From: Mytilus galloprovincialis
Lineage: Eukaryota > Mollusca > Bivalvia > Mytilida > Mytilidae
Length of the DNA: 64,000 nt
Direction of reading: 5' to 3'
NCBI RefSeq assembly: GCF_965363235.1
Contig: NC_134850.1
Coordinates: forward strand, 39,428,602-39,492,601
The position numbers and the translations under genes were made by a program. The notes beneath the pieces are model-generated. The model was not told the DNA's origin and searched no databases. It saw nothing but the letters and a program-made list of their open reading frames with translations. Below, piece after piece: positions 1,516 to 63,238 of this stretch (its first letter is position 1; every line of letters begins with the position of its first letter).

Positions 1516-1679
1516 TTGGGTTCTTAAATCCTAGATTCACTTGACATCTAGGTTTAGGAAGTTGAACTTCTTTCATCAATGTTTTCTCAAATTGACAAAT
1601 ACCAGTTGATTCTAAACATGCAGAAATATTCACACTCAGCACAACAATATTATCACTGGTCAGATCTTTTATTATAAAG
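1516..1679 (-). CDS. Exon 54: M15 segment C, last exon in window
   Basis: 164 bases, phase 2 to 1, acceptor TTTTCAG, donor GTAAGA. Opens [12 protein letters not shown]. Cysteines: SACLE, GICQF and PRCQV. The sequon N-I-S precedes ACLE. A B-type exon is expected beyond position 1, since none is found in 1-1515. Confidence 0.92.
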
Positions 1680-4600
1680 CTGAAAAGAGAGAGGTCAATA
1701 TTTTAGTCAATACATAGAATGTAAAAATATATAATAATGATGGGCTGCACTTGAATTGTTGTTCTCTATCTTGACAGTTGCTCAAAATTGTTAATGATAA
1801 ATTGAAATGCTCTTACTTAAGATAAATTACATGTAACTGTATACAGTATGGATTTTTAAATAGCAGTAAACGTTTGGCCTAGTTCTGCGCTAAAATCTGC
1901 AAATATTGACATTTTTCATTTAGTGACAGGTGAGCTAAAAAGTAGACATGATGGTTTTGGTTTTATGTGTGGTTGTGTTGCTGTCTCATATTATGTATGT
2001 AGCTCATTACCTTTAATTTATCTTTGTAAAGTACAGTACATACAAACTCACACTTTTTTCATTTAAGTAAGCTAGTCAGTGAATTAAAATATATGTTTTG
2101 TATGGAAAAAAACTGTGTTACTCTATTACTCCACATACATGTATTGAATTTTTAAGTTTTTGAAGTTGAAAACTAGTTATTGAGCCAAATGTCCATGTGC
2201 TTGTCCTAAGCATTGACTCTTGTTTGTGATTTTCTTTGTATCTTATAGATTTTGGCTCTAGAAGTTCAGTGTTGATACAGGTTTCTGAGAGTCCATTAAA
2301 TCTATCAAAATCATTTTGAGATTCAGGATGCTTTAGAGGTAAAATACTTATTATTCTTTTATAAAGACTATATTGACCTTTTTAGGTATTTTTTAAATCC
2401 TTTGGTTGTTGTCTCACTCACATGCATAACAAATATCATCTCTTTTCTTTCTAATTACAATTTATTTAATAAATAAGTGTTTGGTTTTAGTTTCTTTGTG
2501 TGTTAGTTTGCATTATAAAGAGTGATCAGTAGTCTATATGTTTGTTGTGTCTTTCATATAATTGATCCTAAATATATCTACCTGAGATCAAATAATCCAA
2601 ATAAGGAAATTTTCTTCTTGGAGCCGTATTCATAGTCAACCAATGAATATTCCAGAGTTACTTCTTCAAGTGAAACAGTTAGTCGAAAGTCACAAATATC
2701 CAGATCTATCCCAGTATTTACAGTGATGTTTAGCATTGGGATATCAGTGCAGCAGTGTAATGCTGTACATTTTTCAGGAATATAACAAGAAGAATGACCA
2801 GAAATTGATTCATTCAAACCAGTAGTTGATGCACATTCTGAAAAAAAATGTATTTATGAAATTAAAAAAAATTTAAGGCTCTAATTTCTCTAATCTAGTA
2901 ATAAAGTAAAACAGAATTCTTAAAAAAAATTCTGTTAGTTCCCGTTAGCGTTCAATTTTTAAAATATATTTTGAAAATTTAATGCATAGAATCAATTCAA
3001 AATTTCAATTCTTTCATCAACTAAGGGAAAAAATTAACTTAAAGATCTTCATATATATATATATATTCTTTAGAACTTGCCAAAATTCTTTAAAATTATA
3101 CATGGAAGTAGTTCTTGCCTTTGTTAGTCGGGTATGATTTTTAATTTTTTGTGTATAATTCGAAGTTTAGTATGACGTCAATTATCACTGAACTAGTATG
3201 CATATTTGTTTTGGGGCCAGCTGAAGGATGCCTCCGGGTGCATGAATTTCTCGCTACATTGAAGACCCATTGGTGGCTTTCGGCTGTTGTATGCTCTATG
3301 GTCGGGTTGTTGTCACTTTGACACATTCACAATTTCATCAATTTTATCTCATATATATATAAAACTAGTAATACTTTGGATAAGCTTATTTTCACAAGAA
3401 TGTATGTGATTTATGACATTTAAATATAACATTAATAAATACCTTTTGACCATCCATTGTTCAGAACAGTAAAAGGGGCTGCATTTCTGTCACAAGATGG
3501 AGACTTCAAATAAGATGATACTCCTAGAGTTTCAAGTACATGTGACACTGCCATCTGATTAAGCTGAATCACTCCTTTTTCTGACATGTATTTGGATAAA
3601 GAAAAGTCTACAATAAATCAAACAACAAAATTTTTAGCATGAATTTACTCCTTGCATTTAAATAGTTAAAACAATTGTCAATCAACAAATCATTCATTTT
3701 ATGCCAATCAGACAGATAGATAAACAGATGGAAAGATAAACAGAGAAGACAAACAGACAGAGCAAGGAATAACATATAAAAAATATTAAATATTTGTTCC
3801 TCGCAGAAATAGTGATACTGTTCTTACTGAATTATCAAAAGAAGTAGACAAAATGTAAATGGAATAATGAAAAGAAACCAAATCTAACCTGGTATTTTGA
3901 ATCCTTTATTCCAGTTACACAATGGTTTTGGTACTCTACTTCTGTCCAAGATGTGAAATTCGTGACAGGTTCCATCAGATTCTAAGCATACACTAGCAAT
4001 CATCGAAATGGCATATTCTTGTTCCGCAGATAAATCATAAATTGAGTACCTATTAACAAATTAAAAAATATATTTCTGCAGATGCCACATTCAGAGACAA
4101 AAAACTGACTCTTCCTGACCTATCACAGTAAAATTCTTTGCATCATATCATAAGCATCGTAAATTGTTTCAGCCAATAGAACCAGAAAGGAGCTGTCAAA
4201 TTGAGAGCAAACCAGGTTTTCTGTATTCATTTTAAGACACATGCACTATCATGTTTGATTGACCTGCCACATTCTGTAACTATTTTCAAATCTATCAAGG
4301 ACTAAATATGATAAGTGAAAATTGTCAATTTTGGATATACATGAACTCAATTTTGTCATTAGTAACAACATTTTATAATTTGAAAAGAACTAGTGAAATG
4401 TTTCATTAGTTATTGAAAAAGTGCTTATTTTCCATAACCATAACTCCTGAATTATATAAGTGATAATAATAGTAAATATCAAACTTCAACTCTTGTCATC
4501 AATAACAATATATAAAAATTTGAAAAGCATTGGTAAAATGGTTCATAAGTTATTGCAAGGAAACTGTTGGCAGCTTCATCATAGTATAAATCGTTTTTTT

Positions 4601-7600
4601 CCCTTAGCAGTGCTGTGAAATATAAACTAATACCCTGTTCACACTATGAAATCTGTTCCGGGTCGAACCTGGGTTAACTATTCCTAATTAATTACTCCAG
4701 TTCACATTTAAATAAAAATTAAACCAGTATTGGATTTCCCTCTCTACAAAAATAGAAAAGTAAACTAAATTGTAACCCGCATCTGCCACAGTGTACATAT
4801 TTACATTTTCTTCTTCATTACAGATGCATTTTTTACTGTACTCTTGATCGCTTTGGAGGAGTTCGAATCCACATCAAATACTTTCCGTGTTTTCAAATAA
4901 CTTCTTTTTATGCAAATTAAACCCATTTCACCCACAAAAAAGCGACGGATATCTTATAGGTTTAATCGTTTGTCATTATGCAGGTTTTTCAACATAGCCT
5001 AAATACACTTATATATCCCTCTTGCTGCCGCTTATTTAATATGGGATATTTAATTTGTGACCCATTAAATAGAGTAACTTGACTTCTGTTAAAATATGAC
5101 GTCATTCGATATAATAATTGCGTTACATTGAAGACCTATCTTATTAAAAGCAAACGTCATATGTCACTATAGCAATAACCTCACATCAATTAACAATTAT
5201 TTGGATAATTGATGTTTATATAAAGGATTAACTCAGTTTTATTCATAGATAGGATTTCCCCTTTTGTTACCTCTTTATCATGTTAGCCTCATTTTCAAAT
5301 TATTTTGGGATATACGTCATCTATATTGCTGCTCTTGGATCAATAGCAGTGCCCCTTTTGTCATCAGATATTTTCATTACATTTTGATTGGATTTTCATA
5401 TTTTAAATTTTGTTTGGAGTATATATACTGATTAATGGATATTAATACATAATTCTGTGTGATCTAAGACTTTAAAACGAATTCATGGTAACTGTCTTTC
5501 CTTATTAAATATCAACGTTCCTTGTGGAATCAAAATGGCTACAAGGAGGAAATCGGCAAGTCGTGTTCAAACAGAAACATTAGATGACCAAAATCCTTCT
5601 AATTGGACTTCATCTCAACTTAAGGCTGCCCTCAGTAAAATAGGGATCAAGATTACCGGAAATTTATCTAACAGTAGTTTAAGAAGACTGTATTTGGACA
5701 ATCGAACAAAAAATAGTTCCGCTACGATTGACAATTCCGATAATTTAGCTGAACGGAATACAGTTTCTGATGGAAACTATTCTTTAAACGTAAGTGATGC
5801 TACTATACGTGATCCTATAGACATAAATACTTCAGATCGCGATGTTCACTCAACTCCTATTCTAACCGTTCAACAGGAGATTGCTACGCCGTCTACATCA
5901 TATGCGCACGCAATTCCTCAGCTTCCGCCCACTGCTGCATCTGCGCACGCAACCATAAACAATAACAATCAAAATGTAAACATGCAAAACCTCCTAATGA
6001 ATACAATTCAACTATGCCAGCAATCTATGCAACAAATGAATAAACAAGGAGAGCAGATACAGCCAAGTTTCAATCTATCAACAGCTCTAGGACATGGTTC
6101 AACTTCCCTAGGCATTGCGCCGTCTTTTAATTCTACTATTCCCGTTTATTCTACTAATTCATCAACTCCAGGAAAATTCGGATTCCCAGCTTCATCGTTT
6201 TCAGCTGTTGACATGGTTTCCCCCGAACTAAGGAACGATATCATTACAGGTAAAGATGTCAATCTTAATATATTATTGATTCCAAACTATGAACACTCTA
6301 CTATGAAAAAGAATAAGGAATCCGATGTAAGACTCCAGAGAAATTTATCAATGGACGAATTTGTAATTGCCTTTGGGCGTTACAAACGTATTATGGGTAC
6401 AGCTTTCCCTAACAGAAACGAGGAGTTAGACTTATACTTGGCACACATCATTGAAACAGCAAACATCTGGCCAGACTGTTTTTATGAATATCACAAAATG
6501 TTCTCAGCTAAATGTGCCGTCATGCTAATTCAGCACAACATAAAAATAGATTGGTCAAAAGGGGACTCAGATTTACGCAATATGGTATGTGCAGGTTCTA
6601 AGATTAACACATGTAGAAAGTGTCACTCAACAACTCACTCCACCGTTATGTGTAGTGTACAGCAGCAAAATTTTCAGCCACAAAGAAATTCTAATTCATC
6701 TAGAAATACACCTGATTCTCTTGGCCGTGATGTTATTTTTGTAGATGGTTTACCCGTCTGCAACAATTTCAATGGATTTAAAGGTTGCACTAAACCTTAT
6801 TGTAAATATGTTCATGCTTGTAAAACGTGTAAAAGTAAAACACATGGCAAAGCTACTTGTCAAAACTACAAAGAAGGTTATCAACACTATGTTCAAAACT
6901 CAGTTAAAGCAAGCAGTAAATCTCAACCTAAAAAATGACTACCTTCCGACTTTACAGCCTCTTCACCTATAAATTGTGATCAGTTAGAATTTGAGCTAAG
7001 AAACCACCCCGACAGAAACTTTGTTAGCTTACTGTGTAACAGTGTTAGATATGGTTTTGATATGTTAGTTTCTGACATTAATATTTCTACTTATGAATGT
7101 AAAAATGCTTTGTCAGCAAGGAAAGATCCAGATTCAGTAACTGCTCTAATTCAAGATGAATTGGTTAAAGGCTTCATTCAGGGACCTTTTTTACACCCCC
7201 CTTTTTCTGTTTATAGGGTTAGTCCAATCGGAATAGCAGTACATAAATATTCTTTTAAGAAAAGACTTATATTGGATCTTTCCTCGCCTCACAACAGCTG
7301 TGATCATGATAGTGTGAATGATTTGATAGACAAAGATTTATGTTCACTTAGTTACATTAAAGTTGATGATGCAATCAATGCAATTCAAGATTATGGTGTT
7401 AATAGCATTTGTTGTAAGGTAGATGTCTGCGATGCGTTTAAACAATTGGGTATTTTACCTTCCCAATGGCATTTATTTTGTTTTAAATGGCATAATTTTT
7501 ATTATCATTATGTAAGACTTCCTTTCGGTTGTCGATCTAGTCCTAAGTTATTCGATATGTTGTCAAGAAGTATATGTTGGATAGCCAAACATAATTATAA

Positions 7601-10600
7601 CATTAATGTAATTTTTCATCTTTTAGATGATTTTTTGACAGTTGATAGGCCTACTGATTGTGGAGAAAAAACAATGGCTTTACTTTCTTTAATTTTTAAC
7701 AAATTAAGTATTCCTTTATCAAAGAAAAAGACTGTTGGTCCTTCTTGTGTATTAGAATATTTAGGCATTGTATTAGACATTGTAAATATGCAAGCTAGAT
7801 TGCCTCAAGACAAAGTAAATAGGATTACAGATTTTATAACTTTAATTTTAAGTAAAAAGTCCTGTACTAGGAAAGAACTTGAACAGTTGCTTGGACATTT
7901 AAATTTTGCAACTAGAGTTATTCTCCCAGGACGCTCTTTTGTTAGTTATTTGTACAAGTTAATGTCATCTGTCAAAGAGAGTTTTTATCATGTTCATTTA
8001 AACAAAGAGTGCAAAGCTGATTTATACATGTGGTTATCTTTTTTGAAAAATTGGAATGGTATCAATTTCTTTTATGAAAAGACTTTAACTAAAGCAGCAG
8101 ATATGATGCTTTATACAGATGCGTCCTCTTTGATAGGATTTGGTGGATATTACCAGCATAAATGGTTTTGTGACCGTTGGCCCGACAATTTACCATGCAA
8201 ATCCGACTTTGCCGCTTCTATGGCCTTTTTGGAACTTTATCCTATAGTCGTTGCAGCTGTTCTATGGGGTAAGGAGTGGTGTGGAAAAAGGATTCTTTTT
8301 TATTGTGACAATTTAGCAACAGTCCACATTATTGCTAAAGGTCGATCGAAAGAAACAAACATTATGAAATTAATGCGTAAACTTACAATGTGTGCTGCAA
8401 CTTATAACTTTGCTGTTTATAGTGAACATTTACCAGGAAAATCTAATGTAATTGCTGATGCATTGTCTCGTTTACAGATGAACAAGTTCAGACTTTTAGC
8501 GCCTCTAGCAGAAGCAACAGCCACTCCTTGCCCTCAGCTTTCAGACATTCTCTGGACAGCTCAGTAGAGACATTATGGAAGTATTCTGTAGCGGACAGTA
8601 CAAGATCGCATTACACTACAGGTTTTGACTTATATAAGAAGTTCTCCTTACTACAGGGATCATTCTGGACTTCAAATGAAATGCCCCCGGTTTCAGAAAC
8701 GTTGTTAATGAGATTTGTTGCCTTTTGCGATGAACATAAAAGCTTAAAATATAGTACTATTAAACTGTATTTATGTGGTATAAGATATTATTACTTGCAA
8801 TATGCAGGATTTAGTCCTTTAGAACAATATGGCAAGCCTTTATTATGTTTACAATCTATTTTAAATGGTTTAAAAAAGAAGCAGAAAGGTTGTGTTAAAA
8901 GGCCTAGATTGCCAATTACTATGTCTTTGTTGTATAAAATGGTTATGCTATTGAGAAACAATTTTTTCAGTCTTTTTAACACAGTGTTTTAACAATGTTA
9001 TGTTAGAAGCAGCTTGCGTTGTAGCTTTTTTTGCTTTTTTGCGTTGTGGAGAGTTCACTATACTTAGCAACTTTGATTCAGAAACACATTTGTGTGTTGG
9101 TGATTTAGCAATTTTTGAAGATCACATTTTATTACAGTTGAAAAAATCAAAAACAGATCCTTTCAGACAAGGTGTCACTATACCCTTATACAAAAGTGGA
9201 CACATTATTTGTCCTTGCTTTGCTATTAAAAATTATTTGTCTCTTCGAAAGAAAATGTCAAGTATTACATCTGATGCCCTGTTTGTCTCTGATGATGGCA
9301 ATCCTTTAAGTAGACAATTTTTTATTAAACATGTCAAAATTATTTTAGACAATTTAGGTCTTGAAAGCAAAAATTATAATGGACATTCTTTCAGAATTGG
9401 AGCAGCAACAACAGCACAGGAAGTAAGATTAGAAGACCACTTGATTAAATCTTTAGGCAGGTGGTCATCAGATTGTTATACTAGGTATATTCATACCAGC
9501 CCTAAAGTAATTCAACAAGCTCAAAATCAGTTAGTTTCATCAATTTCCTTGTCTTAAACTATTGTACTGGCAATAAAAGGAGAATTAAACTTGGGGCTAC
9601 AGCTGCTTCGCATCTGTATTTGGACTTTTCGATAAAATTGTATACTTTTATCATCAAATTTTATCTTATCCCCCAAGTTTTCTGTATATATTAATTTTCA
9701 TTTATATGTTAAAAGGGGGATAACTCTTAATGTTTATTATGTGTATGCAGCTGTTAGTCCCCAGTTTTTCCAATGTAATTTCTATTTTTATATTATATAT
9801 TAGTTTTAATAAATAGTTTTATTAGCACTGGATCTTTATTTAGTCTGAGGATAATTATATTCCACATTGAAAAACAACACATAGATAGAGTTACTTATCA
9901 CAATATTGGATATCAAAGGAGATGCAAGGTATACATCAGTGAGATAGTCCTGTCTTGGAAACTTAGGACTTTTTAAGGTCAAATACAGTCTTCAACAATA
10001 ATGTTATTTCCATCTCTGTCTACTTTAAGGATGAATATAAATTAACAATTATTTGGATAATTGATGTTTATATAAAGAATTAACTCAGTTTTATTCATAG
10101 ATAGGATTTCCCCTTTTGTTACCTCTTTATCATGTTAGCCTCATTTTCAAATTATTTTGGGATATACGTCATCTATATTGCTGCTCTTGGATCAATAGCA
10201 GTGCCCCTTTTGTCATCAGATATTTTCATTACATTTTGATTGGATTTTCATATTTTAAATTTCCGCCACCATCCCCACCTCTCTCCTTTTGTTGCCAGTG
10301 CCTCTGGGGACTATTTAGTAGTCATTACTATTGTTGTATATACATGAACTTATACCTGTAATTTTATGACCTTAATTTTTGTATTATTTTTATATTGATG
10401 TATTTTCTTTTATTCTCTACTCATGCTGACGTATGAGTTTCTTTTATACTACTCAAGCTGACGTTTGGGTTTCTTTTATATTTTCTCATGCTTACGTATG
10501 AGCTCTTATTTACTTCTCATGCTGACGTATGATTTTCTTTTTTACTTTCTCATGCTGACGTATGAGGTCTTAATTTTTACCCATGCTGACGTATGGGTTG

Positions 10601-13600
10601 CGTTTATACTACTCATGCTGACGTATGAGTTTCTTTTACATCTTCTCATATTTACGTATGAGTTTTTTAAATCTCTACTCATGCTGACGTATGAGTTTCT
10701 TTAATTCTCATCATGCTGACGTATGATGTCATGTCTTTTCTATACTCATGCTGACGTATGAGCTTTTACTCTGTACTCATGCTGACGTATGATGTCAGGT
10801 CTTTTCTATTCTCATGCTGACGTATGAGCTTTTACTCTCTACTCATGCTGACATATGGGTTGTTATTTTATCTTTCATTTTTCATGTACTTATGAGCTCA
10901 AACTTGTATTGTTAATTATGAGCTCTTATATTTGATACTCATACTGTTTTTTGAGTTAGTTAATTTTATTTACTTACTGACGTATGAAGGTGTTTAAATT
11001 TTAATCATGTTGGACTTTTCGATAAAATTGTATACTTTTATCATCAAATTTTATCTTATCCCCCAAGTTTTCTGTATATATTAATTTTCATTTATATGTT
11101 AAAAGGGGGATAACTCTTAATGTTTATTATGTGTATGCAGCTGTTAGTCCCCAGTTTTTCCAATGTAATTTCTATTTTTATATTATATATTAGTTTTAAT
11201 AAATAGTTTTATTAGCACTGGATCTTTATTTAGTCTGAGGATAATTATATTCCACATTGAAAAACAACACATAGATAGAGTTACTTATCACAATATTGGA
11301 TATCAAAGGAGATGCAAGGTATACCTCAGTGAGATAGTCCTGTCTTGGAAACTTAGGACTTTTTAAGGTCAAATACAGTCTTCAACAATAATGTTATTTC
11401 CATCTCTGTCTACTTTAAGGATGAATATAAACTTCACTTTGCATTCACATATAGAAGTGAAGTAGTTACCCCGTGTTCGCCCCACATTAACTCCATCTCA
11501 AATGAGGGCTAATTTTAATCCAGATTCGCACAGGGTTAAGGCGCTCACACTACCTAAATTTAACCCGGATTAACTAATTTGGGTTGACCCCAATTTAAAA
11601 AGGCAAAGTGTGAACAGGGTATTACTTTCCATTTGATTGTTTATAGGCAAATTCAGGTATCATGATGATTCTCCTCAAAAACCGATTGTTTTTGTTTAGA
11701 CAAACGGACATTTGTCAATTAAACATTTGATTCTGTGATTACACTTCTTTAACAAATTACTTCCCCTTGTCAATCATAGACCCATGCAAAGCATGATACC
11801 ATGTAAGTGATATATCAGCCTTTTAACAAATTTTAAATAAATATAACTTTCTGGTATCAAAAGCATTTAGCTTAATAACAATTAAATGTAATTAAAAGAA
11901 AAACTTAAAGGTTACACACGATAAATTTTCTCTTTCCACTAGCACATCATTGTCAATAACAATTTATGTCCCTCCCAAGGGAGACAAGTAAAAAGGGGAT
12001 CTCTTATAACAGGGTTCATTATGGGAATTTTATATGTCTTTTTAAGCAATCATGTCTTTATATTTTTAATCCGAAGTCCCTGATAAAAGTTTAATCATGA
12101 AAAATGCTGAATTTGCCTTGACGGAGATAATATCATAAATCATTTTGTTTGCCAGAAATGTAATAATCTTACTTTATCCTGAGTACGCCAAACAGGTCCA
12201 TTTCTTTCCATTTACCCCACTGATAATCACTTAACAAAACATCCATTTCTAATCTCTCAATTCCAACTTTTATGACATAGTTGCAGGGGTCAAAGTTCAC
12301 AAAGAAATGTAGAGATCTGTCAATTAAATCCACATCAAGACAGCACTGGACGTTGTTACAACTGTCATCTAAGTAGCATGTTATTACAGATGTATTTAGA
12401 TGAGGCAATACAGTGGTGCTTGAGCTGCAATCTGTAATGGCAGGAAAAACAAGGTAAAAAAATAATTAAAAGCTATGCTATCATTCTAAGGTTAAAGTGA
12501 GATGGAGAAATGAAAGGGAAATTAAACCACAGCATAGACATCAACCTATTCAACCTATTCATTTGTCATGGATTCTTTTTCCAGAATAAACACTTCCTAA
12601 AACTGTCCCTGAAATGGACTCATCAAATTATTTTCAATTGTTTCCTTTGATAGCCTCATTTCATTAAGTTTGAATTGGATAATTAACAGATTTCTGTTCA
12701 CTTACGGAATCGATTTAAAAATCTACATTTAAATTTTTTAAGCCTTTACTCAGGTATTGCATGGGAATACATAGTCCCCTACCAGTTTTAAAAATTTAAT
12801 TATACTGGAACAAAATGCTAGACTTGATCTATAACTTGTCATTATGTTAACTATATAACAAATATCAAGTCAATATCATCCAGCATGATGAAAAAGGGTG
12901 TGAAAACTAATCATTTTCGTGATTTTTCAAGTTCAAGGACAGCTGTTTAAAGGGAGATAATAAAGGTACTGAAATATTTTAGCTATATTCAGTTTTCTAT
13001 TACTTACACAAACCAAATAAGAACCTGTGTTAATTTGATAATAAGAGGCTGTCAAGAGAGACAGCAAACCAGATTTTCCTACAGAGGTCAAACCATGTAC
13101 AGTTGAGCAAGTATGGACACAACATTTAAGCTTAATACAGCTCTAATTTGGATTGTGATTGAATATTAGATAGAGCATAGGTTTGTATTTTGGTACCAGT
13201 ATTTTACAACATTTTGGGAACCATTTCTTCAGGTTTTCAGTAGAAAAGATCAAATAATCATATATTTTTTTTGTTTTTTTACACATGATGCCCACTTTTA
13301 GTGCTGCATGTTAAGAGTTTATTTACATTTTAAATTGCATAATTTAATCCGGGTTTTAAAAACCATATGCATTACCTGTACTCCAACCCTGGTACTGGGC
13401 AGAAAATATAGAGGTTGGATCTTGTCTACTGCATTCCTTCTTTTTAAGAAAAGGTGCTACTTCAAGGGTATCCAATAACATCAATATTGCATTAGAAGAT
13501 AGTTTTTTAGATGTTTCTATATTCATATCGGTGTACCATTTTGATAGGGACCAGTCTGAAAAATAGAATTTATAATGTAAAATGCAGATAAAAGCAAAAT

Positions 13601-16600
13601 TTGAATATATTTTGAAATGTCTAAAATAAAAATTCTAAACATTTGTAGTCATTGCCCGAAATTTTTTTATTTATCTAAATAGCAAAGACATATTTTGTTT
13701 TGTTTACATACTGATTCATCATAAGATCTCTATTATACAACTCAGAGACATAAAGTAGAATCTTACCAGGATATTACACATGGTGGCAGTGAAATTGACT
13801 TCTGAGAAGACTCAAAGTGAAGGAGGGATACCAAAGAATTTTAGTATGTTTAAACTCCAAGAATTTCAGGGCATATAAATGTTGGAAATATGCCGCACTG
13901 CCCTATGTTTTAATCTCTGAACAAAAAAGTAATGCATATCAATTTTCCATTCTAGACATAATTTTTTACAAAACTTCATAGTAAAGGAGGACAGTTTTAG
14001 CTGTAAATGGAGAGCCTATGAGAAATTGCATTGTCTATATAGATTTACACAAGAGCACCCAAAACAGTATGGGTTTTTCTCATTGTTGGAAGCTGTATGA
14101 TGGCATACGATGCTTACTACCACTTTATGTTTACTCTGAAGGATAGTTGTTTCATTGGCATTCATATTACATCTCCATATTTTAATATTGTTGAATCCTA
14201 CTTACTTGCATCTAAAAACCCTTTTGTCATGCTGCATTGAACCTTAGGTAATTCAGTGTTAGAAAATATCGTAGCCTCAAAAGCACATGGACCTCCATCA
14301 TTAAAGCAAACTTTGAAATCCAAATCTATGTAGTATACTGATAAACCATGGAAGTCTGTAATTTTGTACCTACAAAAATCATTGCATTTTCAACTTTAGT
14401 AGCTAATTAAAATTTTGAAAAAAAACAGGATCTTTGAAACAATGCTATGATTAAGCTATGAATTTTGTTGATGCAGAAACTTATGGAATGTCACTGTGTT
14501 GAATGTTCTATCCTGAATTATATTAAAACAAGAATGTGTCCCCAGTACATGGATACCCCATCCACACTATCATTTTCTATGTTCAGTGGACCGTGAAAAT
14601 GGGGGAAAATGTCTAATTTGGCATTAAAATTAGAAAAATCAGATTATAGGGAACATGTGTACTAAGTTTCAAGTTGATTGGACTTCAACTTTTACAAAAA
14701 CTACCTCGTCCAAAAACTTTAACCTGAAGCGTGACAGACAGAAGGAAGGACGGACGCACAGACCAGAAAATATAATGCCCATAAATGGGACATAAAATAG
14801 ACAACAGCAGATTAACAATTCGTTATCCTTGCAAATTTTAATTACATTTTGCATTAAAAACAAAAATTATACATTTTTGGTTTCATATTATGAAACAAAT
14901 AGCTTACAAATTACCTAATTTCAATTACTTTTCCAATATGAAACTGTTTCTCAATCCCATACTCAAAATCCATTAGGAAAACTTCATATTGATATTTTTC
15001 AATACCAATGTTTAGTTTATAATTACAAGGGTCTATCGTGAGAAAAAAGTTCACATTTCTATCTATGAACTCAATGTCAGCACAACAACTAAATCCTGTA
15101 CAGGTTTTGTCTAAGTGGCATGTAATTGAATCTGGAAGGTCAGGAAGTGTTACATTTACTACACATTCTGAAAAAAAGAAAATTAATCAGTAAACAGGAT
15201 CTAACAGAAGTAATTAGAAGAATAAACATCAACATATTTAGATCACAAAACAATTAAAGAATGCAATTCCACAAAGTGACATAACCAATTGGAACATAGG
15301 TGAAGATGAACCCATCTTGATCTTCAAGCAATGGTAATTTTGATCTTTTAGTATATGTTTGTTTTTTTGAATCTGAGATTTCTTCTGTATTATGAACTCT
15401 ATAGTATAGATATTCTTTTATTAATGTTGTTTTCCAACTTTTTAATATGGGGACGAAGTTCCCTATTACAGTAGAAAATTCAATAAAAAAAAAAATTCCC
15501 GAATTTTTCATTGTACTAATGAACTCAAAATCGTTCAATTTTTTTTTTTGTCGCATGTTTGAATTTCCGGATCGGCGCAAAAATCTACTTCCGTTTCTGG
15601 TCTTGTTTACATGAGACTTTGAATAAAATGTATATTTATCAGTCTAAGAAAGGAACTTATACTAATTCATTTAAAAAAAAATGTTTGTTATTAAAAAAAC
15701 GTTACCTGATGACAACGTTTCTTTGTTTACATTGAATATGACGTCATAATTTAAATAACGTCACAAAACTAAAATCCCTCACAACAGAACCAAAATCGGA
15801 AACGTTACGGTATTTCCATTTCTCTTTTTAATTAACATTGTTGATTTTTAAAAAAATCCTAGACTTTGTCCCCATTCACAGGTAATTCCTGCCTAATATT
15901 ACCTGAATTCCATCCATGGTTGTGGTCAGTTTTGTATATATCAGCAGACTGGTCACATGTTGGGTTTAAAAGATAATCAGCCAGGTCCAGATCTTCCAAT
16001 AACTGTGATATCAGGATTGGAGGTAACTGCTTCAAGGAACTACTAAGCCCGTTGTCACTCATCCAGTTATCAATGTTAAAACCTGAAATACATTTTTTTT
16101 TCAATTCTTATCCAATATTTGTTGGTTTTCTTGTATAATTTTTCCATATTTTTAACAAATATGTGATTTTTGGACAAATGTTCAACTAATAAAAGAATGC
16201 ACACACTTGCAAAATATTACAAGGATACCAAGGTGATGAAAAAACACTTTCAGAGCCATGCAGCCTGCTAAGTAGCTAACGTTTTTTATTATTTTTATCC
16301 TACCTTTAATTACATACTTTGAAAGATCAGTCAAACGGGTGATAGTTGTCTCATTGGCAATCATACCACATATCCTTATTTTTATATTAAATGTATTTCT
16401 GCTATATCCTTCAATTATCTTCTTTTACCATTTTTTTAAATGAAACAAAATTAGAATAATTCTTTCAATCTGTCTTCAGGCGTAAAAGTTGACTGACCTG
16501 GAATCACAAAGTCATCAGACCAGGAACAAGGTTGTTCTGGTAGCCTTACACCATTCAAAATGTCAAACTTGTATCTGCAGTCACTGTGGGTCTCAAAACA

Positions 16601-49600: not shown

Positions 49601-52600
49601 GCTAAGATATATCAATCGACCATAACTTACCCCATTTGTAATCAATTAGTGGGATTTCATAATGTCTTTTCTCAATCCCAAAAGAGAGTTTCATATTACA
49701 GCCATCAATATCTGCATATACTGTGAATGATTTCCTGATTTTTCCAACCTCAACACAGCAAGTAATTCCTGTACATTGGGATGACAGAACACAACTTATG
49801 GTACTATGTATCTTAGGTAAAGATAAAGTCAGTGGACATGCTAAAAAAATATAAAGTAAAAGTAAATGGCTAAATAAGAAAAAGAATATCAAGTAAACCA
49901 TGATCAAGCAACAATAAACTCATTTAAAAAATCTGTATAGGCTCAAAGTTGCATCTCAGTATAATGTTTGCAGATTTCAAACAAAGCATTGTGCAATGGC
50001 AGTTAAAAGTGTCTTAACATGCTTAAAATCACCTTTTACTACCAGAACAAGACAAAAATAGGATGAGAGAACAAACAAAAAAATACCCCTCTCTCTTGCC
50101 CACAATTTTTTATTGGATTATATTCCTTTTAACATGAATGACCATGATTATATTCCCTTATGCTGTAGTACACATGAACTGTGTAAAGTGTCATTCACAT
50201 TAATATCCAGTTTCCCATAATATAGCTGTGCTCACGTGAGACTAATATCACATATGAAAACATTGCAGTAAGTCAAACTAGCTTCTAATTAGCATGTGGG
50301 ATGCAAATCTCCCAGGTAGCGTTCTACATGTGAGAAATTTCATGAACTTCAATTCAGACTTGATCTAATAATACACATCAACAAACAGAAAAACTAATAG
50401 AGGCAAATTATAAATGGCTTGACGTGGGAAAAGGGAAGCCACAGAGAAAAAAACAGGTGGTTGGAGGAAAAATTCTGAGTTATGGGTAATTACATCTGGA
50501 CATGAAAAATAGATGGACGGATATAAGGGATGACACAACCCTAAAACTTTACTAGTAACTAAGTCTGGTGGTATTCATCCTCAACATTTCAAAAAAACAA
50601 ACAACAAGTAAGTTACCATTAAAATTATTTGTCATTTGCAATTCCTTAGCAAAGCATCAAGGGTGCTGCGATTCAGCCAACTTGACTTGATCATCCACAT
50701 GGAAAACTATTTTACAGTTCAATTGCCCTTTTTTAAGGTTGATAAATAGAGAATATCATATGGCTTTTTCAATATAGCATCCGTATCAACCCGAGACACC
50801 AATATAATCCCTCGAGCAGAGGGATTTGAAAGCCTTTGCAACAGTGACTGCAATCGATGACGTGACGTCATACAGATTAAAGGTGTGATAAAGCTTTTGC
50901 AATCGTGCTGATATCGATATCATCATAGGTGGCTGATACAGCACGCTTGCCAATGATTGTATTACACATACAATTTATCTGTATTTACTACTTAGTATAT
51001 AATAAAAGGATTTATCATCAGACATCCTGAAAGCTATATATATGAACTGAGGACGCAGTCCCAGATTAATATTCTTGTTTAAGTTGATATATACTTGTAT
51101 GGACCTCAGAAATAGGCTACGATATATTATTGTAGACCTTAGATATAGATGATAGATAACCTTGAAACTTTTTCCTGAGGTGACACTATTTCATACGACA
51201 ATATTTTGCTATACCATTGCAATAAACCACTGTTAGATTAATAAATTACCTGTAGTATTCCACCCATTAACAGCACCATTATATGGTATTTCATTTCTGT
51301 CACATTGTTCTTCATTAAGGAATGGCTTTATACCAAAATATTCCATCAGTTCATCTGAAAGTCCTGTTGTTAAACTTTTACCAATGTGAAAACCTTTATC
51401 TTCCATCCATTTGAACAAAGACATGTCTGAAAATATATTTATATAATTACACCTTATGTAAGAATCCTTGGTTTTGATTGGTTGATAGCCAGTGTATTTT
51501 TCACAAATTTACTGTTATCAAATGAATATCGTTCATTTTTTAACGCCGCTGGGGTATAAGCAAAAAGGATATGCCTTTTTTACCCTCTCTGCTGTGGTTT
51601 TTGCCAAAAAATACTCTATATGACTGGACGCTTGTAACGTGATCATTAATGCGTTTTTGAAAGTTAACATTAGGTGTAATTAAACAGATATAGCATGTTC
51701 TTGAGGGGTATTTGCGAAAAATACTAGTCTTGAGAATGAATTTCCCTCGCCTTACGGCTCGCGAAATTTAACATTCTCTCGACTGGTATTTTTCGCAAAT
51801 ACCCCTACTAAAATATGATATATCTGTTTAAAATTCTTTGGTTATTTGCCAGATGGTATTTTCTCATAAGTCCAACTGAACTTTTTGTTATACCTGACAA
51901 AAAAATAAGCACTGCTGGACTTTTGAGGAAAATTATCCTTTCTGTAGAATGAATAGCAGGGTTTGTGTCTTAGAAAATTTTACTCATTTATGAGTAGGAA
52001 CTATCCTTATAGCAATAGTAAAAAGTTTGCCACAAAATATTCTGTTCTTTGAAAGAAAACATTCTTTCAAAAATATGTATGTTATCAAATTTTACAAGTA
52101 ATTGTATAAGTTAATGTTAAAATGATTTATTTGCTACATACTTTTAGTTCAAACTATAGGATGTGATCCTTGCTCAAGACTTCAACTTATAATTCAATTC
52201 ACCAATTAACACCCTACAACAACAGTGTATATATGCACTGAAAGCAGGAAGATATAGAAAATCCATTATTTAAAGTTGAACATAAAAGCATACTTTCTGA
52301 CTTAAATCCCATATCCAGATAACACAAAGGTTGAGGAATCAGTTGATCTCTAAACAATGTCAGTGTTGGATTACACACATTTTTCTCAAGACAAACACTG
52401 AATTCCAAGTCTACTATGTATTTCTTTTGGTCTGAGAGTTTCTGTATTCTGAATCTGTGAAAAATAATAGTTTCATGTCAAGTAATCTGATCATACATTT
52501 GAAAATACAGTCTTGCAGAACTCAACAATAATAAATTGTGTGCCTTGTTATCATGAAAATGCAACCAAACTGGCAGTGTGTTTGAAATATGGACCTAGTT

Positions 52601-55600
52601 GTGTTGTTCTGAAAGCAGCAAAACAGGCCACTGTTGAATGCAAAAAAGGTAAACAGCAGAATATTTCTTTTTTTTTAATATTAACAAATTTGCATAATGG
52701 ACATTTAAAAAGTCTGCATCCACGTCGCGAGTTTTCACACGCTTTTTGACCTGTCATGTCATGACATGATTAGTCATTGTCAGACATTGGCAACTATGAT
52801 GAAGTTATTTGATAATTTATCGGAGGAAAAAGAATGGAATAAAATAAAACACAGAAAAAAAGTATTTTATAAACATTGGGAAACATATTTATTCCAATAA
52901 ATCTAATCAATCAGTATATCATTTAAAACCACTTGATCAATTCTTAAAAAGAACTTGACCTCCATCCCTCATTTTATAACATGTTAGATTTGTCTGACAA
53001 CATTTCACATTCTAATGCAACAACATTTGTAACGTTCATTTTAATTGGATAACGTCACTTATTTACATGGCATCAATTGTTAACATGTTTTAACATTGTT
53101 TTCTGTCAGTTTCATTAGAATGGAGATAACAATATTGTATTTTAAGCTCTGACGTCATCAACTGGGCATTGGATGGTCGCAAATACCAGTTTACTGTCTC
53201 CGCTAATGCGTCACCAGTAAACTTAATTTGCGACCATCAAATCCCCAATTGATGCCGTCGGAGGTTAAAATACAATACAGTTATCTCCTAAATAACCTAA
53301 CGATTGTGCAAGCTAATATTGGCCAGAAAAGATTTAACGGTAATTTAAACACAAGTGAATTAAATGAACAGGGTCAAATGATTTGTCATAACGACTAAGT
53401 CTAATAGTCCCAGATTCTGTGCCATTTTTTTTAACCGAAATTTTCTCTACTAAAACAGTCAAATGTGTTGAAGGAATAAATCATGCATACAGCTTTAGAA
53501 ATCTTTACATGTAAGAATCCAAATTTACCAACCACAGAGTAACAGAGTAATTTAATATCTTCCAGCAAAGTATTACGCAGGTAATATCACTGCAGGGGTT
53601 ACAGTCAGACATATTTTCCGACTAGTCAGACTTCTTGTCTCATAAGGACATTTATAGGAGCAAGACTTAAAATGTACAGTTATGACTTACTTTAATCTGA
53701 ATATTTCCTGTAACCTTTCTTCCTTGACATCACCTTTTTAAAAAAATTAAAAAAATATTACAAATAATAAAAACTTCATTAATTGTGTAGGTTTTGACCT
53801 AGTTCCCGAGTTTTTGATAATATATGTTTTTAGAATAGTCAACATGGGTTGTAAACCCTGTTCTAGAAAATCTTTGTATCTGTGAATTCAATATAAACAG
53901 TCCCACAATTTGGTAATTTAGGAAAGAACCTTTAAGTTTGAAGAATGGGGACAAGATCCAGTGGTGATACTACAAAGTGGATATTTTTATTTTGAAATCA
54001 ACAATTCTATATTTTGGTCAACAGATAATGAAAATAATGCTAAATCACCCGACTGTATATATCACATGACTTACCCCAGGTATAATCAAAGAAACTTATT
54101 TCAAACTCTAGTGTTTCTATTCTGCCTCTTATCTGGTATTTACAGGTATTTATGTACAAGTTTATGTTCAGTGACAAATCCAGGTAGTCAAAGTTGTAAC
54201 AACAATCTATTCCTGTACAGTAATCTGGCACGTAACATACAAGGGACTCTGGCAATATTGGTAACCCTGTGATGGCTGGACAATCTGTAAGAAATTATGT
54301 TCTAATGAAACTGTTGACTATACTTTTATTCTTATTACTAGTCACTTTATTTGTGGATGATAGTTTTCCCTTTTACTACATGTTTATATTTGAAAGGTGT
54401 TGTAAAGCAGTACCTTTTTCCTATTAGTTAAATGCATCAAATAAAACCTCAGATGTTAGAATACATAATGGGATATTCAAAACTTGACAAAATTGAACTA
54501 TACTGGCTGCTAAAAATGAATCATTATTTCCCTTTCAGTTAGATATGTATTAGATTGAATACACAAATTCTTGACCTCAATACCAGAAAAGTATTATGAC
54601 ATCAACACCAGAGTTTAATCCAATCCCTACTTACACCTTTGAGAGTTATTGTAAGAAAATCCTGGCAGCTGTCCATCATACTGGTAATGTATCAATAATC
54701 TCATTTGCCTAATGCAAGAACAGGAATAATAGCATTTCGAAAAAGTGTGGGAATCAACTCTATCAATATCTTAAACCAAATTTTATTCAATGGGTTACAT
54801 AAGACACTGATAAATCACTTTCATTATTCTTATCAACTGCTTAAATTTGATAAATCACATTTTCCACATTAATTTATAAATGTTGATTTAATGTAAATTT
54901 TAATTTACAAAGGAACTGTAGGCAAGTGTATATCTAAAATAAAGAAGTTTTTTCACCGAACATTTTCTTAATTTAAAGACAAATAACATTCAAAAGTTGG
55001 CTGTTGATGATTTAAATGGTGATAGTTTTTGCAAGTCATAGAAACACTTAATTATTTTCATGACATATGTTCAAATCTGGATTTGTCACATAGATCTAGC
55101 ATGGCTGTTAAAAAATATTTAAATAAATCTATTGTGTTACACATTTTCAATGCTTTCAATAACAATGAATACCATTTTCCCACCCATCTGATGAAGAAGA
55201 ATTATATAAATCATGTCTATGACTACATGGTGAAGACTTTATCAGAGTGTCCAATCCAAGCTGTTGTAGCAAAATTCTAATGATTGCTGGCTCCATCTGA
55301 CCAGCTATATCAACTCCTAAATTGTCTGCCCAATTGGTTAATGAAAAATCTAGAAAAAGACAAAAACAATGTCTACTAATTTGCATATAAAATTCCTAAT
55401 TTCTAAATTTTCTTAAAGCCAGAATCTGGATGTCAAAAAACAAAAAAGTGAAAACCTTAATTTATGCAAGGGAGTTAAAATTTTGAATGTTCAATTTTTT
55501 TTAAAATATGAAATATTGAAGATGTGGTAGGATTGCCAATACAATATTACAAAGAACATATATTTAAGCACTGTTAAAACTCATTATAAAAAATCTATAA

Positions 55601-58600
55601 AAGTTTTCAAAATACTGTTGAAGACGGAAAACCACTTTTCTTGATTTAAAAAATAAGACAATAGGCCTTAGAAATACAAAGAAACAATCAATTTATAAAG
55701 TCATTAATACTGACATTTAATCTTGATATCAAATAATGTTCAACCATGGCCTATGTTAAGGAATTAGGAAAGTCTGCATTGTATTTACAACAAGACATAT
55801 TCTCCATTTTTCCAGGTTATGGTAGACTTTCTAAAATCATTTAACATCTCACAGTGGTAAACTACTGTTGCCTTTATTTATTGACCCCTTATCTTATTCA
55901 TTTTGTACTTACATTGTGTCATAGATTAAATTTATTTGTTTAGTGTATATTCACTTGTGTTAATTTGTCTTTTCATTGAGTTAAGCCATATCAATTGATA
56001 TTTCATAATGTGTCTTTCTGTGTTGTGATGTTATACTATTGTTTCGGTAAGGGTGAAGGTTGGTACCTATTAAAACGTTTTAACTTGCTGCATTTGCGAG
56101 CACCTGTTCTAAGTCAGGAACCTGATGTTTTGTAGTTATCGTTTGTTGATGTGGTTCATAACTGTTTCTCGATTATTACATAGATTAGACAGTTGGTTTC
56201 CCCATTTGATTGGTTTTACACTAGTCATTTTTGGGGCCCTTTATAGCTTGCTGTTTGATGTGAGTCAAGGTACCATATTGAAGACTGTACTTTGACTTAA
56301 AATGGTTATTCTTTTACAAATTGTGACTTGGATGGAGAGTTGTATCATTGGAACTCATACCACATCTTCTTATATCTATATAGAATATCAGATGTCCCAA
56401 GTCATTAACTTCCCGCCAAAACAGCAACCTGAATAAACTGGCCCCTTTTTATGGTCCCATTGCTGGCAGGTTTTAATGTATTTATCTATTTGTTCCTTCA
56501 TTTATATGCATATAAAGTAGTAAACATATACCTTTCAGATCAATAACAGTTTCAATGTCACAAATAACTTGAGGAATCTCTGTTTTATCAAACACTTTTA
56601 TATCTGGGACACAGTTATCTTTGTCATACAAGCAGACTTTTACAGCAACATCCAGAACAAATTTCTTTGAATTTGGTGGCTTTTTCATAGAAAACCTATA
56701 AATAAGATGTGGTTAATTAATGAAGCAGTTACAATCAAACTTTTACAGCTTAAAATAAGGTCTGATATTTTTAAAACAGAATCGGTAGTTAGAACACTTC
56801 TACTTATACATTATAACTACAGAATCTCAAAGAAATCCACTGTTATTCAAACAATTTCATAAAATAGTACAATTTTCTTTATATAGCTATGTAACATTGC
56901 ATTTTCAAATTTTTTCTCGAAATCAGATGAATTTTATATGACATCATTATTTATATAAAGTCAAAAACACCTAATATCAGTTATTTGATATATTAATTAT
57001 ATACACTGTCATCACTTACTCAAATACAACTACATCTTGTGCTAGGGATATTCTTTCCGTCTTTCCTACAAAATAAAAAAAAAAATAATATGAATATAGA
57101 ATCAAGGCTTTGTAAAACACAAGGTCTAGGCTATACTATTCTTTAAAGTTACAAAATTGATTTATCTTCATAAAAATTTAATACAAGATGCATACAATTT
57201 TTGTTACTGTTCAGCAAAAAAAAAATCAATGTTTACACTCTCTTCTATCTCTATCTCATTTGAGATCAAATGTTGCTGCTGGACATTTTAGCATTTTAGT
57301 ATAAACAAGATAAGCTAGTAATTTTGATTAATTTTTCTTCATCCTAGGTTCATTTGGTTTTCTAGTTTCAATCTGACATTATGATTTGACATAAACAAGA
57401 ATGTGTCCCTAGTACACGGATGCCCCATCCGCACTACCATTTTCTATGTTCAGTGGACTGTGAAAATGGGGTAAAAACCCTAATTTGGCATTAAAATTAG
57501 AAAGATCATATCTTAAGGAACATGTTTACTAAGTTTCGGATTGATTGGACTTCAACTTCATCAAGATCTAACTCGACCAAAATCTTTAACCTGAATCAGG
57601 ACAGACAGACAGACCTACAAACAAAAGAATGAATGAAGGAAGAAAGAACATACGAACCAACAAACCAACGAACAGACACACAGACCAGAAATCATAATGC
57701 CCATAAATGGGACATAAAAATATTCAAAAATATGTAATAAATATATTTCAATCTTAATTAAACCTGTATGACCTACCCCATTCGTAGTTAACCAGGGATT
57801 TAGTAAAATTTTCTGTATTGATTCCATATGTTATCTTGTAGTCACAAGGATCCAACACAAAGAATGGCCTAATTGTCAGTCCAAAGGAAGGGATATTGGC
57901 ACAGCAATCAATTCCAGTGCAGGATTCTGTAATGTGGCAAGCTATTTGGTCTCCCAAATCTGGACGATTAAACATACTCAATGGACATCCTAAAATTAAA
58001 AAAGAATATTTGGAAATGGTTTTATTTCCTTTTAAGCTAAATTTTGGAACATTAAAATCACAATTTCTTTTTTTAAAAATCCAGTGCTGTGAATGGTACT
58101 TCGACTGAAATTGAGCCTAAACAAAGTTTAATCCCAAAACTAGTGGATGCCAATTTTGGAATTCCATAAACATTACATATGGGTGGAAATCATCATATTT
58201 CTTTTTATTGTATTAATGAAAAAGTGTTTGAATACAACTGAAAATGGTTTCAACCTTTTAATTTGGTATGAAACTATTTTGCTTTTTACGATTGAGTGAC
58301 TAACCTGATGAACACAAATTCATGCATGCATATTACAATAGTATAACAATAGTGCACATCCTGAAATGACCATTAATTTTATGCTCATAGTCCTACATAT
58401 AAAGTTTTACTACAAGTATTGCATAAACTTCACATGATAAAACAAGAGTGCACATGCTTAGTGATTGTATTTGCTGTTTTATTACCTGAAAATAATTTCA
58501 AAAACAAAAGTTGTGCTAAAGGTTGATTAAGAAACCAGATTTCTATTGTATACTAGTCAACTAAAGTAACAAGTTCAAACTTCAATTTATCATAAAATTA

Positions 58601-61600
58601 GATAAAATAGGGTTTGCTTAAATTTCAAATGATATATATAATAATATTATCTTCAGCTTTGGCTTTAAGATAACAATGAGTGTGCATTTCCATGGTAATG
58701 CAAACAAATTAAATTTTCACCGTCATGGGTTATAAACATACCACTGTTCCATCCCTGAACACTAGGTGAATAAGGAGCTCTTTCAACATCACACTTTGGA
58801 CCACTGAACAAATCAGAAAGGTGTAACTGGTCAAGGATGAATATTACAGCAAAATCTTTCAATCCTTGATTAATATCTAGGTTCACTTCATCTAACCAAC
58901 CCTTGACAGAGAAATCTAATAAATATATAAAGTATTATCAATATCATTAGCATATAATAATTATGTCAACATTATACTAAGCTTAGAGTAATAACCCATT
59001 TCTGTTGTGAACTTTGTTTCAATTTTTAACTGTTGCATGCTGATATTTTCATTTTTTTTTTTTTCAATTTTCGGGGGTCACTGTTGGGGATAAAGTCATG
59101 TTGATTACTCAAAGCTCCTCAAGTACTTCTTAACCAGGCTTTTTAGTCATAAAATATCACTTTTATTGCTCTTATCATTTTAAAAATTACATTTAATAAA
59201 CTATTTTTTTTTAAATATTTTGTGCTATTTACTTTGAAAAAAAACGTGGTTTACCTAGCAGGACCATTTGGCTCAGCGAATATATTTTTTTTTTTATTAA
59301 AGTAAATAACACAACACATAAACCTCATAAAAGACAATTTATATATAAGTGTATTCTTATATTATACAGCATAAAACAAAATTCATCTAGTAACCCTTAA
59401 ACTTAACAGAAAACCTTTAACACTGATGAACTTGTCAACAACAGCATGATTTCTGAATATTATTGCGGTATTCAAATACTGTATCATTATAAAAAAAAAA
59501 TTAATTATAATGAGTTGTTCTACATTTAAATTTTTAGCCTTTTGCATGTTAATCAACTTGTCATAAAGCTGCTAATACCTGTGCCTGTGACAGTTCTGGA
59601 GCAGACAGGAATTTCATGCTGGTTTAAAATCTGAAGACCATTTTCTGGGATACAAAACACTTGATTATCCATTGGAAGACATATATCTATCCTGAGATCT
59701 ACCACATATCCCCTTCTTGCTTCAAGTTTATTTATTTTGTATCTTTAAATATATCAATAAGAAATAAAGATATTGTAAGAAGCCTAAACTAGTTTCATTG
59801 AAATCATGATAGATTGGTAGGAAAATGTAGGTAAAGTGGAAAAACATATTCTGAGTATTATTAAAATACGAACAAGATCTCTAGATCTTATTTTATTTTA
59901 TTTGTTTAGAATTCTTTCAGAAAATAAATTATGGGACCATACCTTTTTTCTTCTTCTCATATTTGAGTAATCTAGTAATTGACTATATGACAAATAAACC
60001 TGTCCATGTAAAACAAGGATGATAATTTAAAATCTTATTTGTAGATTTATTATATATAATATATTCCAAAGCACATATACACTACAATGAGACCATGAAC
60101 AAGCAATTCATTTTATAATTATTCTGTTTATCAACAAAAAAATCTGCATTCATTGCAAAACATATCCCTTGTCGTATATAGCTATAAATAACTTGAAACA
60201 TACTGACCTAATGGTCACAGGTGCTGTATCCCCATTTCCAATTTCCAGCTTATTTTCTATACCTAAATTTGAAAATAAAGCTAGGTTATGCATATTTTGA
60301 CAAGAAACAGCTGGCCACTAAACAAAAATGTGTACTAGTTAGGCTAGTAAAAAAGCTACTTAAATATTCAATAGATAATATATGAATATCATGTGAAATC
60401 AGAAAAGAAAGTACGATTTACATGTCCCTATCAATGAACTGAAATTAAATATTTGTATGATGATCAGTTTCGATGTGTTAAAGGCATTTCAAATGTATTA
60501 AATAATTATTCATATGTTTCAATGTAATACTGTTAACTATTACGCCTTCCAACTATTATCCCATTTCCTATATCCTCAAAGTATAAGGTACCTCTAAATC
60601 TTAGCCTCTTAATTTTGAAGGGATTTAATGATAAAGTTTTATTTTATTTAATATCCTGCTCACTAAATTACTTTTTACAATAACTCTGAAATATACAAGT
60701 ATTGGATATTGGACCAATGTATTTGGCCAAACAATTGGAATAAGATGTTGGCAAAGGAGTTACACATGTTATCTGTGCCTTACATTGTTTGGTTTTTGTC
60801 TCCAAGATTTGTAAGCTCTAAATAACATATCTGATAGTCCCAATCTTAAACTTGTTTAATTTCATATTCTTTGAGTATGAAGATGGAATACCCCATATCA
60901 ATTTATTTGAAAACATTTAATTAAACAACATAACTTACCCCAGTCATACTCTAGTAGAACCATCTTATGGTAGTATGTTCCAAAACTTATTTCAATTTTA
61001 AAATCACAAGTGCTTAAATTAAATCTAAATGGAATATTGTATGCAACATCATCTCCATTAAATGGAAGCTTGAATTTCAATCCTAAGCAGCAATTGAGTC
61101 CTGAACAACTATCTGTTAATTCACATTTCACTTTGTCTCCCGATGAATTTGGTATTTGTAATGTGTTGGTACACCCTGCAATGAAATATTTTTTTTTTTT
61201 CTTTGTTACTGATCAATGAAGAATTACACAGTAATGAGGGGTGGATAGACAGATGTATACTATTACCAAAAAGTATTTGATTCTTCTATCTAGAGACTCT
61301 AAAGAGCAAATGTCACTTGCCTTGGTCTATGTGCATATGCAACAAAACACTTTCCCACATTGTAGACAAGAGAAATTCTGTTTGTTGATCTTGTATTGCT
61401 GATCATATTGTCTTTTTAGTTTACACAAGACACAAATGGGTAAAAAAAAAATCACTCATATAAAGAATAACATTCTTGCCTTGCTGATCATTTAAAGTGT
61501 TTATTTTATAACGTCTTCTTCCAAGATGCAATAGGAAAGTTTAAAGTTTATATACAGGAAAATATGTTGAAAGAAGTAACTCTCAATAAATTCCTTTTGT

Positions 61601-63238: not shown

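Follow-up and report, generated by a model that had tools for sequence, protein, structure and literature searches.

Fifteen tandem cysteine-rich cassettes in the mussel Mytilus galloprovincialis point to part of one giant gene for a modular protein

Introduction

Do the many small cysteine-bearing exons along one strand of a Mytilus galloprovincialis chromosome belong to a single very large gene, and is the module that they encode a known one? The window analysed here is a stretch of 64,000 nucleotides, and all coordinates below are positions within it. The original prediction had proposed a giant gene of tandem cassettes, each made of four segments called A, D, C and B. We examined the exons, their splice phases and cysteines, their introns, and the relatives and folds of the encoded module. 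We conclude, with a probability of roughly 0.75 for the whole reading, that the window holds part of one giant gene whose secreted or surface product is made of disulfide-stabilised beta modules and helical linkers.

Results

Profile detection of the exons

The C, B and D exons of one cassette were used to build iterated profiles, which were run against the stop-to-stop frames of at least 25 residues on both strands (1,465 frames). Strong matches numbered 15 for C, 15 for B and 14 for D; every one of them fell on the minus strand, and their order was kept without exception. These accepted exons scored 45.8-104 bits, while the next-best match in the window reached 8.2 bits; in six control windows (one reversed and five first-order Markov) the top score was 14.5 bits, and nothing passed 40 bits in any of the six. 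Profiles rebuilt with one exon left out recovered 44 of the 45 C, B and D exons: every C exon at E <=3.6e-11, every B exon at E <=1.2e-5, and 14 of the 15 D exons at E <=5.2e-10. The exception is the first D exon (63147-63238), which gave E 0.28, or 0.062 when joined to the neighbouring segment 62523-62565, and which we accept by position, phase and splice sites only. The predicted 15 copies of every segment were thus recovered for C and B and for 14 of the D segments, with a weak first D; A is a separate exon in only eight cassettes.

Layout of the array and gene model

On the minus strand, 54 exons run from 63238 to 1516; they keep the order D-C-(A)-B throughout and share one open frame. Joined, they amount to 8,847 nt or 2,948 codons and contain no stop, against about 203 expected from the minus-strand stop frequency. 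The order, strand, span and exon count of the original prediction were reproduced by the profile search and the splice checks, and its single frame is borne out by the same stop-free 2,948 codons.

We placed the exon boundaries manually, guided by the in-frame translations, and then checked them for AG/GT and phase. AG precedes and GT follows all 53 tabulated exons, and the inferred exon 62523-62565 is likewise cut at AG/GT. The sites are hand-picked rather than blind choices, with a donor score at +3..+6 of 2.91 of 4 compared with 1.29 for all GT, and with C or T at -3 in 49 of 54 chosen acceptors compared with a fraction of 0.49 among all AG. The 53 introns have a median length of 735 nt; the longest, of 8.1 kb, separates C from B in the cassette that we call K13. 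The G+C content of the window is 31%.

Splice phases follow exon class: D is 1-1, split C 1-1, fused C 1-2, A 1-2 and B 2-1. All 15 C exons and all 15 D exons start in phase 1, and the repeat unit is flanked by phase-1 introns at both ends, so that its duplication keeps the frame. The identical splice phases that had been claimed therefore hold within an exon class and fail across all exons, since the first D exon ends in phase 0 and needs an extra exon. Segment A forms its own exon of 43-55 nt in eight cassettes (six of 43 nt, one of 46 nt and one of 55 nt) and closes the C exon at its 3' side in the other seven, where the fused C+A exons have their lower coordinates at 44313, 25310, 23144, 17307, 14915, 12173 and 2582. 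The A exons of the two most 5' cassettes (60208-60262 and 57020-57065) were missed by the motif score and are placed by splice quality and phase; an exon running from phase 1 to phase 2 must in any case lie between C and B here, given that split C leaves the frame in phase 1 and B takes it up in phase 2.

The array begins with the first D, one D lying upstream of each C to give 15. Its diverged 5' half (63147-63238, phase 1 to 0) is recognised by AG/GT, phase and a weak D profile match, and its inferred 3' half (62523-62565, phase 0 to 1) by frame and splice score; the latter has the top splice score among the stop-free, cysteine-holding candidates in the interval, and its motif is too short to score alone. 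The cassettes, all on the minus strand, are numbered from here. K0 (58742-61175), the most diverged, has C at 60939-61175, A at 60208-60262, B at 59579-59742 and D at 58742-58915. K1 (55173-57989) has C at 57777-57989, A at 57020-57065, B at 56532-56695 and D at 55173-55349; for K2 (51250-54284) the corresponding exons are 54075-54284, 53691-53733, 52294-52454 and 51250-51426, and for K3 (45709-49840) they are 49631-49840, 48340-48382, 47258-47424 and 45709-45876. K4 (41866-44571) has a fused C+A exon at 44313-44571, B at 42639-42802 and D at 41866-42036. The split form returns in the next four, again listed as C, A, B and D: K5 (39704-41449) with 41240-41449, 40733-40775, 40148-40302 and 39704-39856; K6 (35441-38892), which is without the first two B cysteines, with 38683-38892, 37914-37956, 37039-37199 and 35441-35614; K7 (32398-34661) with 34449-34661, 33521-33563, 32981-33147 and 32398-32562; and K8 (25980-30448) with 30239-30448, 28825-28867, 27295-27455 and 25980-26150. 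From K9 onwards C and A are fused, and the exons are C+A, B and D: K9 (24087-25562; M10 of the original prediction) with 25310-25562, 24771-24940 and 24087-24263; K10 (20810-23399) with 23144-23399, 22241-22401 and 20810-20980; K11 (15903-17559) with 17307-17559, 16498-16661 and 15903-16082; K12 (13376-15167) with 14915-15167, 14206-14369 and 13376-13555; and K13 (3443-12431), which carries a retrotransposon in its C-B intron, with 12173-12431, 3889-4049 and 3443-3607. The last, K14 (1516-2837), is incomplete, having C+A at 2582-2837 and B at 1516-1679 and no D.

All identified exons are internal, each bounded by an acceptor on one side and a phase-matched donor on the other. No strong C, B or D profile match lies above 63238 or below 1516 in the window, and a D exon following the last B was not found in 1-1515, where the best of 74 splice-bounded candidates had E 90. 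A D-like match at 770-829 (8.2 bits), which is in none of the listed candidate exons, we take as chance. When the window was crudely scanned for first exons that resemble a signal peptide and have a strong donor, the gene strand gave none and the other strand one; searches of the window for Rfam matches and for tRNA genes (in the bacterial setting) also returned none. Both ends of the gene most likely lie outside the window, and the 54 exons are probably part of one very large split gene.

Cysteine frame and divergence

The alignment of the 14 complete cassettes has 224 columns; K14, which is without D, was excluded from the cysteine counts. Cysteine occupies ten columns, of which C contributes six, including an adjacent pair, B three and D one. 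Cysteine fills 138 of the 140 positions in these columns and occurs nowhere else in the 14 cassettes. The number per cassette is even throughout: the ten that had been proposed for every cassette are present in 13 of the 14, and K6 has eight. The two absent cysteines are in neighbouring columns, the first two of B, and their joint absence, although a single event, resembles the loss of one disulfide and suggests that the two cysteines pair.

Outside this frame the copies differ widely. Pairwise identity among the 14 complete cassettes is 19-39% (median 30%), and neighbouring cassettes have a mean identity of 0.31 against 0.30 for all pairs. The exon DNA is too diverged to align between copies, except for two short matches, and similarity between introns is confined to dispersed repeats in unlike positions. 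Given the low identity and introns that share only dispersed repeats, we regard the array as old and without recent homogenisation. A tree of the 15 cassettes is star-like, with none of its 12 inner branches well supported and a median end branch of 1.11 changes per column, so the order of the duplications cannot be read from it.

The C-A intron

The intron between C and A is missing from K4 and from the unbroken run K9-K14, and is present in the other eight cassettes. The fused and split states are clustered along the gene (four runs, P = 0.015, in a test chosen after the pattern had been noticed). On the cassette tree the same labels do no better than chance, 96 of 500 shuffles being as low for fused and 102 of 500 for split. 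The clustering suggests block duplication or local intron loss.

Repeats and mobile elements in the introns

Inside the K13 C-B intron we observed a retrotransposon at 5185-11309 on the plus strand, opposite to the gene. We take it to be a tyrosine-recombinase element of DIRS/Ngaro-like type, with a split-repeat layout. Of its four plus-strand open reading frames, two (5535-6938 and 8528-8992) have no Pfam match. The frame at 7062-8567 matches a reverse transcriptase model at E 1.2e-5, short of the Pfam cut-off, and the frame at 9000-9557 matches Phage_integrase at E 7.3e-8, which passes the cut-off. Two pairs of direct repeats, 5185-5410 with 10037-10262 (99%) and 9620-9919 with 11010-11309 (100%), give the order A1-ORFs-B1-A2-B2; from this order and the 99-100% identity of the repeats, the insertion is probably recent.

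One dispersed repeat family occurs in the C-A introns of K1 and K7, the C-B intron of K12 and the B-D introns of K3 and K6, with 78-86% identity over the longer pieces (193-279 nt) in same-strand comparisons only. One intron repeat may resemble repeats of mussels. We also noted a 161-bp tandem satellite of 3.8 copies at 795-1410, directly downstream of the final exon identified; a set of short tandem repeats at 43210-44128 in the K4 C-B intron, whose units look inverted and which may be a small transposon; and intron minisatellites at 18168-18495 (67/133 bp units) and 35816-36176 (171 bp units).

Family searches

Scanned singly against Pfam, the 14 complete cassettes gave no match above a curated cut-off (best E 0.095); for the complete product of 2,948 residues, scanned as pieces of 1,762 and 1,186, the best E was 0.071, with 13.6 bits against a cut-off of 25. 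NCBIfam returned nothing beyond chance for the fourteen cassettes, and a 14-cassette profile found no match among PDB sequences at E <=10. A profile search of the cassette thus yielded no hit that would assign it to a well-described family, and the earlier statement that its motifs match no known family holds in Pfam, NCBIfam and PDB sequences. Every weak family name in the 14-cassette scans appears in just one of the 14. Among the candidates set aside as chance were DsbD_N (Pfam, E 0.071, a piece of the whole product) and the best Pfam name for the other piece (E 0.11), both under the curated cut-off; MoaA (NCBIfam, E 0.023), which touched only the first and most diverged cassette and scored under its curated cut-off; and the PDB sequence matches NAD+ hydrolase (E 0.17) and Transcription intermediary factor 1-alpha (E 0.53).

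Absence from Pfam does not mean that the module is confined to this gene, and relatives were sought in viral and prokaryote sequences. Single-protein queries, which reach close relatives only, gave pattern-matching stretches of which none was confirmed: 11 in viral contigs with the K7 C exon, two in viral contigs with the joined K13/K14 stretch, and, with the K5 C exon, 52 in genomes of bacteria and archaea. Similar sequences may occur in other bivalves, corals and lancelets. Literature searched by peptide strings and descriptions did not describe the module in the titles and abstract openings of the matches listed. By these comparisons the module is without a family in Pfam, NCBIfam and PDB, and a giant phase-1 modular extracellular protein is familiar as a kind.

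Predicted structure

Of K9, the cassette proposed earlier for structure prediction, the C and D exons were modelled singly with AlphaFold2. With a 15-row alignment the C exon gave a mean pLDDT of 77.7 and five strands; the D-exon model (mean pLDDT 79.9) has three helices and a less certain tail. Neither model matched a PDB fold at E <=0.001: the C exon had 347 matches up to E 10, the best at 0.87, and the D exon two matches, the best at 7.6. Most likely C, A and B would together form one disulfide-stabilised beta domain and D a short helical linker, the joining of the parts being extrapolated from single-exon models.

Discussion

Ordered cassettes, consistent exon phases and a frame that stays open establish the outline of a minus-strand gene, and one gene grown by duplication of a phase-1 cassette is well supported. 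The growth by phase-1 modules that had been proposed agrees with exons that are all internal and with a frame open through all 54. We propose that the protein would be a string of modules of about 200 residues; that, as the cassette begins and ends in phase 1, tandem duplication could have proceeded without breaking the frame; and that the duplications happened long ago, each copy then diverging while retaining its cysteine frame.

A possible objection to one giant gene is that the exons make up a cluster of several shorter genes using the same module, with one or a few cassettes each. Tandem gene clusters are common in animals, the gene ends are not within the identified exons, and introns of up to 8.1 kb could agree with such an arrangement; against it, acceptor and donor sites of matching phase bound every identified exon, and the crude scan put no signal-like first exon on the gene strand, so that we hold a cluster to be unlikely. 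Less probable still is a VERL-like protein of fertilisation or the egg coat, built from repeats and shaped by recognition-driven evolution. Marine molluscs do carry long egg-coat proteins of tandem modules, and the abalone VERL protein resembles our gene in being a long array of similar modules; VERL repeats, however, are ZP modules, many of them nearly identical, whereas the mussel copies are about 30% identical, neighbours hardly more alike than pairs overall, with no ZP-N or ZP model among the Pfam matches at E <=1. A decayed array, a former gene now unexpressed or only partly used, is the least credible of these readings: it would suit the strong divergence of the first cassette and first D exon, but a stop-free frame with canonical splice borders and the retention of nearly every cysteine among copies of about 30% identity argue against it.

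The alternative that carries most weight is that the module belongs to a known family of extracellular domains but has diverged too far for profile searches to reveal it, which we consider a serious possibility, if one at less than even odds. Our profiles were built from 15 copies of this one gene and the queries in the Pfam and NCBIfam scans were single sequences, which leaves room for it, while the 14-cassette profile met no PDB sequence even at E <=10; the failure of the C and D models to match a PDB fold also counts against it, weakly, as these are single exons modelled with moderate confidence. Fibrillin, hemicentin and tenascin, like this gene, are commonly described as long module arrays grown from symmetrical phase-1 exon sets by internal tandem duplication; in the mussel gene, by contrast, no Pfam domain scores meaningfully and each module is split over three or four exons. 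Von Willebrand-type VWD-C8-TIL arrays similarly repeat cysteine-rich assemblies with a CC pair, but no VWD, C8 or TIL model in Pfam matches our cassettes at E <=1.

To return to the single giant gene, its product is probably one secreted or surface modular protein. Sequons are in excess in the joined frame, which has 35 where 2,000 shuffles average 23.0 (P = 0.006), and one common column carries a sequon in six of 14 cassettes; the strongest 19-residue hydrophobic window averages only 1.49, nothing in it resembling a membrane span. The window yielded neither a signal peptide nor a transmembrane end. The regular cysteine frame, the sequon excess and the absence of a membrane-span-like segment fit a secreted product or an ectodomain, and the secreted or surface role suggested originally, which leaned on cysteines and sequons, gains indirect support from an even, nearly invariant cysteine set and from the sequon excess. 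Its function can be named only tentatively: so long a series of modules, alike yet diverged from one another, suggests a structural scaffold or adhesive, in which every divergent module would offer its own contact face, and which, if secreted or displayed at the surface, could act as a long multivalent molecule in matrix, mucus, egg coat or haemolymph.

We also put forward, as a conjecture that may well fail, that the cassette represents a domain not described before, whose fold is its own and combines a ten-cysteine beta domain with a helical linker; strung by the dozen in some animals into proteins well above 3,000 residues, it would make up a new structural class of extracellular scaffold. 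With the C-A intron present in eight units and absent from seven, the array serves as a natural archive of introns gained or lost within repeated units. If the gene is transcribed as modelled, the mussel has a very large extracellular protein whose visible part consists wholly of one module missing from the searched libraries, and that module would define a new domain family, possibly with a fold worth solving.
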